From: Gemmatimonadaceae bacterium | GTDB taxonomy: Bacteria > Gemmatimonadota > Gemmatimonadetes > Gemmatimonadales > Gemmatimonadaceae | Assembly (NCBI GenBank): GCA_025928185.1 | Contig: JAICKA010000006.1 | Span: 1-64,000 of the forward strand | Direction of reading: 5' to 3' | DNA length: 64,000 bases | Shown: positions 19,825 through 22,477 of the stretch, in pieces | Layout of the letters: every line of letters begins with the position of its first letter | Numbering within the stretch: the stretch's first letter is position 1 | Notes under the pieces: generated by a model | The model's input: only the letters and a program-made list of their open reading frames with translations | Databases searched by the model: none | What the model was told of the DNA's origin: nothing | Translations under genes and position numbers: made by a program

Positions 19825-20814
19825 GTGGCCAGTACCTTCACTTACGATGTCGTGATCGTCGGCGGCGGCCCGGCGGGTATGTGCGCCGGCATGTACGCCG
19901 GTCGCGCGATGCTCAAGACTGTCGTACTCGAGCGCGGCACCCTCGGCGGCGAGCTGCTGAATACGGAGATTGTCGAGGACTACCCCGGCTTCGAGCGGGT
20001 GCTCGGCCACGAGCTGGCGCAGAAATTCGCCGACCACGCCGCCAAGTTCGGCGCCGAGTTCCGGACCGGGGTCGTCGTCGAGTGCGTCCGCAAGCTGGAT
20101 GACGAGACGTTCGAGACGCGCACGGAAGCCGGCGACATCTTTCGTTCCAAGACTGTGATCGTCACAGCGGGCGGCACGCCGGTGAAGCTCGGCGTGCCGG
20201 GCGAGCTGGAGTACGCCGGCAAGGGCGTGTCGTACTGCGCCATTTGTGACGGCGCATTCTTCCGCAACGAGATCATCGCGGTCGTCGGCGGCGGCGACGC
20301 AGCTACGGAAGAGGCGGACTTTCTCACGCGATACGCCGAAAAGGTCTATTTGATCCACCGGCGCGACGAGCTGCGCGCATCGAAGATTCTCCAGGAGCGG
20401 CTGTTCGCGAATCCCAAAGTGGAAGTGATCTGGAATCACGTGGTGGAGCAGGTGGAAGGCGACGGCAACGGTCTCGTGCGCAACCTCAAGCTGCGCGATG
20501 TGACGACGAATGCGGCGCGGGATCTCGGAGTCACCGGCCTGTTCGTGTTCGTTGGATTCCGACCGAACACCGGCATCATCGAAGGGCACGTCGACCACGA
20601 CGACATGGGATATCTGCTGACCGACGCGAACATGCAGACGAGCATCCGCGGGTTGTTCGCCGCCGGCGACGTCCGCGCGCAGCTGACGCGCCAAGTGACG
20701 ACGGCCGTCGGCGATGCGACCACCGCGGCGATCGCCGCGGAGAAATACCTCAAGGCGCTCGAGGACGGCGACGCCAGCGAGCCGATTGTCGGCACCGGCG
20801 GGTACACGGCGTGA
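19825..20814 (+). CDS. trxB: Thioredoxin reductase
   Basis: A 329-residue flavoprotein that passes electrons from NADPH to thioredoxin or a similar partner. The FAD loop is VVIVGGGPAGMCAG, the redox disulfide is in SYCAICDGAFF, and the NADPH loop is VVGGGDAATEEADF. The C-terminal FAD motif GLFAAGDVR is present. The start is GTG at 19825, preceded by GAGGA. Its stop overlaps the MBL gene start (GTGA). The downstream genes include an AhpD-like candidate selenoprotein that would need a thiol reductant. Confidence 0.93.
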   Translation: MASTFTYDVVIVGGGPAGMCAGMYAGRAMLKTVVLERGTLGGELLNTEIVEDYPGFERVLGHELAQKFADHAAKFGAEFRTGVVVECVRKLDDETFETRTEAGDIFRSKTVIVTAGGTPVKLGVPGELEYAGKGVSYCAICDGAFFRNEIIAVVGGGDAATEEADFLTRYAEKVYLIHRRDELRASKILQERLFANPKVEVIWNHVVEQVEGDGNGLVRNLKLRDVTTNAARDLGVTGLFVFVGFRPNTGIIEGHVDHDDMGYLLTDANMQTSIRGLFAAGDVRAQLTRQVTTAVGDATTAAIAAEKYLKALEDGDASEPIVGTGGYTA

Positions 20815-21455: not shown

Positions 21456-21938
21456 ATGGCGCAGCGCCTGCTGTGGCCGACGATTCAGCTCATCGTGCTC
21501 GCGGTGTGGATCGGCGCGGCCGTGTTCTTCAGCGCCGCGGTCGCGCCCGTGCTCTTTCGCGTGTTGCCGACGCGCGCGCTGGCCGGTGAAGCCGTGGCCG
21601 GCATGCTCCCGGTGGTGTTCTATTCGGGCATCGTCGCGGGTCTCGTCGTCCTCCTGGTCGAGTTGACGCTCGACGACGGCCATCCATGGTCGGGACGCAC
21701 GGTGGCCGCGGTCGTCATGATTCTCGCATGCGCGATCGCTCAATGGTTCATCGCCCCGCGCATCGCGCGTGTCCGTGACGCGATCGCCGGTCCGGTGGAC
21801 AACCTGCCGGTGTCGGACCCGCGCCGCGTGGCGTTCGGCCGATTGCACGGCTTGAGCGTCGGCTGGCTCGGTATCGCAATTCTCGCCGCGCTGGTGGCGC
21901 TCGTGCTCGTCGCTCGCACGTTTCAAACCCGGAGATGA
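21456..21938 (+). CDS. DUF4149/TMEM205-like membrane protein
   Basis: A 160-residue protein with four predicted helices. The start of the first helix, LIVLAVWIGAAVFFSAAVAP, and LPVVFYSGIVAGL in the second fit the DUF4149 family. Function is unknown. The last four bases ATGA form the start of the following AhpD-like gene, so the two are coupled. Confidence 0.75.
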   Translation: MAQRLLWPTIQLIVLAVWIGAAVFFSAAVAPVLFRVLPTRALAGEAVAGMLPVVFYSGIVAGLVVLLVELTLDDGHPWSGRTVAAVVMILACAIAQWFIAPRIARVRDAIAGPVDNLPVSDPRRVAFGRLHGLSVGWLGIAILAALVALVLVARTFQTRR

Positions 21939-22477
21939 CTGCTATGGACCAGGAACCGCGCGTCACGCGCGTCGACCCCGCCGCTGCCGACCCGACGCTT
22001 CGCGAATCGTTCGATGGATTCCTCCGCGCGCGCGGCAAGGTGCCGAATCTCTTTCGCATCGCGGCGCACAACCCGCCCGTCGGTCGGACGCTCTCGGCGC
22101 ACCTGGATGCGGTGATGGGGCCGGGCACCGTCGGAGAGTTGCTCAAGGAACTCTGCGCCGTTCGCGTCTCGCAGTTGAACAGCTGCGAGTATTGACTGGC
22201 TTCCCATACCGCCTTGGCAAGGCGGCTGGGTGCGACGGACGAGCAGATTCGGTCGCTCGGCGGCGGCGACGTGTCGTCGTTCGAGCCGGCGTGGCGCGCG
22301 CCGCTGCGCGCGGCGGCCGAGATGACCAACGGCGGCGGACGGTTGTCCGAGGGCACGTACCAGGCGCTCGCCGCCGACTGGACGGAGGCGCAGATCGTCG
22401 AGATCGTCGCCGTGATCGGCCTGTTCAATTACTTCAATCGTTTTGCCAACGCCCTCCAGATTCCGCCCACGAAGTAG
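21935..22477 (+). CDS. AhpD-like/carboxymuconolactone decarboxylase-family protein with in-frame TGA, candidate selenoprotein
   Basis: Reading through the TGA at 22193-22195 gives 180 residues, the usual length of peroxidase-related CMD/AhpD-like proteins. The first part (86 residues) ends AVRVSQLNSCEY, and the part after the TGA begins LASHTALARRLG and continues to FNYFNRFANALQ. In the family the active site is CxxC followed three residues later by His. Here it is Cys84-Glu-Tyr-[TGA]87-Leu-Ala-Ser-His91, so the TGA stands exactly at the second cysteine. Both sides stay in frame and look conserved. A hairpin follows at 22203-22230 with SECIS-like geometry. I read this as CxxU selenocysteine. 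A TGC-to-TGA mutation or sequencing error is the alternative. ATG 21935 overlaps the DUF4149 stop. Confidence 0.78.
22203..22230 (+). promoter_or_regulatory. Candidate bacterial SECIS hairpin for the UGA at 22193-22195
   Basis: The upper stem pairs 22209-22215 (CCGCCTT) with 22219-22225 (AAGGCGG) around the loop GGC (22216-22218). A lower stem pairs CCCA (22203-22206) with TGGG (22227-22230), and an internal loop TA/C lies between the stems. The loop starts 20 nt after the UGA and its first base is G. Known bacterial SECIS elements have a stem-loop at about this distance with a G at the start of the loop. It lies within the coding sequence, as expected. Confidence 0.68.

Follow-up and report, generated by a model that had tools for sequence, protein, structure and literature searches.

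Introduction

An in-frame TGA that is followed at once by a hairpin raises the question of whether the codon is simply a stop or whether it is a selenocysteine (Sec) codon marked by a bacterial SECIS element. We address this question for a gene lying in a 64,000-nucleotide stretch of Gemmatimonadaceae DNA, referred to here as the window, in which a reading from the sequence alone had pointed to a 7-bp perfect stem with a GGC loop after such a TGA, a hairpin that is indeed found at 22209-22225, with the TGA at 22193-22195. The features on which the discussion relies are the following:

19825..20814, forward strand: thioredoxin reductase gene trxB, conserved upstream neighbor (TIGR01292, 355 bits against a cut-off of 343; synteny in Gemmatimonadota)
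21944..22477, forward strand: predicted AhpD-like (CMD-family) selenoprotein coding sequence (ATG 21944, TAG 22475-22477, 177 aa, TGA 22193 read as Sec)
22193..22195, forward strand: in-frame TGA (UGA), predicted selenocysteine codon, aligning with TGC/TGT in 43 Cys orthologs and with TGA in 41 distinct sequences
22203..22230, forward strand: outer extension CCCA (22203-22206)/TGGG (22227-22230) across a TA/C internal loop, present in the MFE fold and not conserved
22209..22225, forward strand: putative bacterial SECIS core, stem CCGCCTT/AAGGCGG with GGC apical loop, 287/287 cells paired in 41 Sec orthologs

The gene and its in-frame UGA

The coding sequence is preceded by GGAG at 21931-21934, and its TGA occupies the second position of a CxxC/CxxU active site (N-S-C-E-Y-U-L-A-S-H). 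Without a Sec reading the list of open reading frames splits the gene into an 86-aa and an 87-aa frame; standard gene calling would cut the selenoprotein gene in two, as it does for most selenoproteins. Full-length orthologs are present in both Gemmatimonadota and Acidobacteriota, with the homology running on past the TGA, and this conservation of the downstream protein argues against a genuine stop. An open frame is also what would be seen if TGA were reassigned, for example to Trp, or read through without the help of a SECIS element, but the upstream MBL and DUF4149 genes terminate in TGA, the residue aligned with the codon is the catalytic Cys, the genome holds a full Sec system, and the stem tracks the TGA, and we attach only a minute probability to a reading of this kind. 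Since the neighboring genes use TGA as a normal stop, it must be the context that marks TGA 22193.

Geometry of the hairpin

The stem consists of seven Watson-Crick pairs joining 22209-22215 to 22219-22225 around the loop GGC (22216-22218). It starts 13 nt past the TGA and not 20 nt, as the sequence-only reading had it, the latter being the distance from the TGA to the apical loop. The claimed fit to a bacterial SECIS holds in every dimension: the apical loop has 3 nt (limits 3-9 nt), its first two positions contain G, as they do in 41/41 Sec sequences, the upper stem has 7 bp (limits 4-16 bp), and the 20 nt between UGA and apical loop lie within the range of 16-37 nt. The SECIS element of E. 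coli fdhF contains a bulge in its upper stem, whereas the window hairpin has none. The MFE fold reproduces exactly the hairpin that had been proposed, namely the 7-bp stem together with the outer CCCA/TGGG pairs, though the folding energy exceeds chance expectation only marginally (z = -1.57, with 11 of 200 shuffles folding equally well). The 4-bp lower stem beyond the internal loop, described earlier as an extension of the hairpin, is thus present and folds, but its conservation fails: all four pairs form in only 8 of the 41 Sec sequences, and three of the four do not form in 16 to 20 of the 41 Sec orthologs. The lower stem was rejected as a part of the SECIS on these grounds.

How much weight geometry can bear depends on how often it arises by chance. 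Of the 1548 TGAs in the window, counting both strands, 10.7% are followed under a loose bSECIS geometry by an unbroken SECIS-like stem of 7 bp or more, and about 17% of synonymous recodings carry a hairpin of loose SECIS geometry. Such geometry is too common in GC-rich DNA for it to be anything but weak evidence when taken alone, and the earlier argument that a fitting geometry makes a random stop improbable was, as an argument, weak, even if the SECIS reading itself is upheld by the comparison of orthologs. These frequencies, together with the modest z-score, speak for the possibility of a genuine stop at this position, or of a sequencing or assembly error in a Cys gene, with the hairpin having arisen by chance in GC-rich coding sequence. 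The exact stem, however, was recreated in just 13 of 500,000 synonymous recodings that kept the peptide and followed local codon usage, which tells against chance, as do the compensatory changes described below. The exact hairpin class, defined by seven Watson-Crick pairs and a GGN loop, has just two occurrences in the window when both strands are counted. A search of Rfam returned no matching family; the three hits obtained were sub-threshold chance matches on the opposite strand.

Comparison of selenocysteine and cysteine orthologs

Orthologs were gathered from the genomes of relatives and from named genomes, giving 41 distinct sequences with TGA and 43 with TGC or TGT at the Sec codon, so that the in-frame UGA aligns with a conserved Cys of homologs, as in a selenoprotein gene. 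All seven stem pairs form in 41 of the 41 TGA orthologs and in 1 of the 43 Cys orthologs. Within the TGA alignment, where every stem cell is paired, four of the seven pairs have changed in both partners, amounting to 13 cells, and the covariation lies above that of all 500 shuffles; in the Cys alignment, with the single exception (L059) left out, 26.8% of cells are paired, which is no better than shuffles. The compensatory changes that the sequence-only reading had proposed to look for are therefore seen in TGA homologs and not in Cys homologs, and equal conservation of the stem in the latter, which would have reduced it to coding sequence, is contradicted by its absence from 42 of 43, some of which sit at the same syntenic locus as TGA orthologs. 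We regard this comparison as decisive and as far stronger than the figures for energy, geometry or recoding. That 41 distinct sequences, drawn from independent genomes in two phyla, all have TGA at this codon along with a co-varying stem refutes a chance stop or an error in a Cys gene, for which we retain almost no credence.

A subtler objection is that the hairpin is conserved through the peptide that it encodes, HTALARR, and not as an RNA element. The Sec orthologs do have HT[AV]LARR in common, and the similarity of their DNA is for that reason partly coding. Against this stand the stem codons, which are rare in the neighboring genes (AGG 2/100 Arg, GCA 9/156 Ala, TTG 15/139 Leu), the double changes, which keep the pairing although they swap residues (A to V, R to Q), and the Cys orthologs, among which similar peptides such as HTALSRK and HTMLARR come without the stem and only the one of 43 already mentioned keeps it. 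Conservation through the peptide is, on this evidence, very unlikely, and we consider it close to certain that the 22209-22225 hairpin serves the AhpD-like selenoprotein gene 21944-22477 as its bacterial SECIS element.

A covariance model of the hairpin, built from the 41 TGA sequences, found a significant match in the genome that contains the window at the window site only, and so no sibling SECIS of the same sequence elsewhere in that genome. Run against 151 genomes of the order, it gave 23 matches, one per genome. In held-out genomes 16 matches read as TGA genes, and further double changes were seen among them, with UA at pair 18/32 in 12/16 and at pair 20/30 in 10/16; this set is not wholly independent, since at least one member (L138) is identical in sequence to a record already in the model. 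One held-out TGA ortholog (L152) has its outermost pair broken, and the weakest match of the model is a Cys ortholog with 2/7 pairs.

Protein family, active site and structure

The protein belongs to the CMD family and to the AhpD core, its scores lying above the curated cut-offs of both PF02627 (Pfam; 68.4 bits against 23, over residues 45-127 of the scanned frame, on both sides of the TGA) and TIGR00778 (NCBIfam; 57 against 27.8). Among full-length NCBIfam models TIGR01926 (peroxidase-related enzyme) fits best; it is matched by 10/10 orthologs with E up to 0.001, and the window protein misses its cut-off at 78.0 against 81.8 bits. Glu69, Cys81, Cys/Sec84 and His88 are invariant across ten aligned orthologs, with the spacing of Glu118, Cys130, Cys133 and His137, the catalytic residues of Mycobacterium tuberculosis AhpD (PMC3141380); given this match, Sec would stand for the second catalytic cysteine. 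The Glu-Cys-x-x-Cys-His proton-relay spacing and the two-helix AhpD core are common to the window protein, M. tuberculosis AhpD and P. aeruginosa PA0269, the last of which also has a Tyr before the second Cys, as here (PMC3141380), the difference being that both of these enzymes have Cys at the second position, where the window protein is predicted to have Sec.

The AlphaFold model of the window protein (pLDDT 94.8) matches peroxidase-related and AhpD structures with TM 0.83-0.88, and sequence matches were obtained as well. The fold is common over the whole chain to the Bmp8 debrominase and Deinococcus AhpD (6ohi, 6k40; TM 0.84-0.87), which are Cys enzymes with 21-25% identity to the window protein. 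M. tuberculosis AhpD (1lw1) matches the whole fold only weakly. The selenoprotein probably reduces hydroperoxides or acts as a thiol/selenol adaptor; for its substrate and its electron donor we infer as much from family resemblance. As a separate observation, many Acidobacteriota Cys orthologs (L096, L097, L101, L102, L105-L108, L111-L117, L122, L123) have the motif N-[EDA]-T-P-Y-C-L-A-S-H, from which the first CxxC cysteine is absent, so that of the pair they retain just the residue equivalent to Sec.

Selenocysteine machinery

The genome that contains the window, a MAG that its named relatives place near Gemmatimonadaceae, encodes SelA, SelB and SelD as well as a tRNA-Sec (74 bits), and selA, selB, selC and selD, as expected for a genome with a selenoprotein gene, are thus all present. 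Its SelD gene (L128 around 1531, G000:C53) lies directly upstream of tRNA-Sec and itself contains an in-frame TGA where Sec is usually found (RCAGUAAKLG), followed by a hairpin that differs from that of the AhpD-like gene. Among relatives, tRNA-Sec scores above the cut-off in 6/6 genomes with a close TGA ortholog, and of the three genomes with close Cys orthologs, it does so in G014 and not in G012 and G022 (2/3 without). In G022 a SelB-like match (G022:C67:8760-9935) is broken by an in-frame TAA, and this genome possibly harbors a decaying Sec system. The genomes of relatives also contain a second, more distant CMD/AhpD family with an in-frame TGA (L029, L030, L033, L034, L035; C-x-F-U-[IT]-x-SHAAVAA), in which a different potential hairpin, GCCGCGGTCGCGGC, follows the TGA.

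Selenocysteine and cysteine states at one locus

In Gemmatimonadota, TGA and Cys orthologs alike are flanked by trxB, the MBL hydrolase, DUF4149, an aspA-like lyase and an Rrf2 regulator. On a protein tree made with the Sec codon and the hairpin-encoding residues masked, at least five changes between Sec and Cys are found, and the stem went along with the codon in 4/5 independent pairs and in the opposite direction in none; the sign test on these pairs has a median p of 0.125, five pairs alone being too few to reach significance. The one Cys ortholog with the full 7-bp stem and GGC loop, L059, comes from a Terriglobia MAG (JASHTR010000071.1, 3238-3297) and has a TGT codon; SelB is present in its genome and tRNA-Sec was not found above the cut-off in what is a fragmented assembly. 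The simplest reading is that this stem would be a SECIS not yet decayed after a recent change from TGA to TGT. We put at about even the chance that the Gemmatimonadota/Acidobacteriota clade forms a distinct AhpD-like selenoprotein subfamily, with repeated swaps of Sec and Cys at one syntenic locus and with at least one Cys gene that has retained its SECIS.

Relation to known selenoproteins and SECIS elements

Since 2005, AhpD-like selenoproteins that carry CxxU and have a bacterial SECIS downstream have been known from the Sargasso Sea set (PMC1088965), and a 2026 review (PMC13188914) lists the AhpD-like CxxU selenoprotein in a table under TIGR01926; the window gene is consequently a further example and not a new kind. 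It has in common with the Sargasso Sea protein the CxxU in an AhpD core, the in-frame UGA and the SECIS directly downstream, and differs from it in scoring slightly below the TIGR01926 cut-off and in belonging to a clade of Gemmatimonadota and Acidobacteriota. The hairpin likewise agrees with the bSECISearch consensus, namely a 3-nt loop with G first, a 7-bp upper stem and a loop 20 nt after the UGA, and nothing in it falls outside the bSECISearch model (PMC13188914). The window hairpin is very probably a well-supported new example of a SECIS that works in the known way. For the Gemmatimonadota clade of this selenoprotein we found no description in the literature searched, which covered titles and abstracts, with most subscription papers outside its scope.

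Proposed mechanism and significance

The computed hairpin with its co-variation, the lack of the stem in Cys orthologs, the homology across the UGA and the complete Sec machinery suggest a mechanism in which Sec insertion and SelB binding are the steps that we infer. When a ribosome reaches UGA 22193, SelB carrying Sec-tRNA-Sec would bind the GGC apical loop 20 nt downstream and deliver Sec at the UGA, with termination by release factor 2 being avoided. The product would be a full-length, 177-aa, peroxidase-type enzyme of the AhpD fold, with Sec in place of the second CxxC cysteine (Cys133 of M. tuberculosis AhpD), and its electrons may be supplied by the thioredoxin reductase encoded nearby at 19825..20814.

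These findings indicate the use of selenium in an uncultured soil lineage. The Sec and Cys forms at one locus provide a clean comparative set for the coupling of Sec/Cys exchange with the gain and loss of SECIS elements, and if the proposal of a distinct subfamily is true, this subfamily could hold a natural record of the sequence of steps by which one residue replaces the other.
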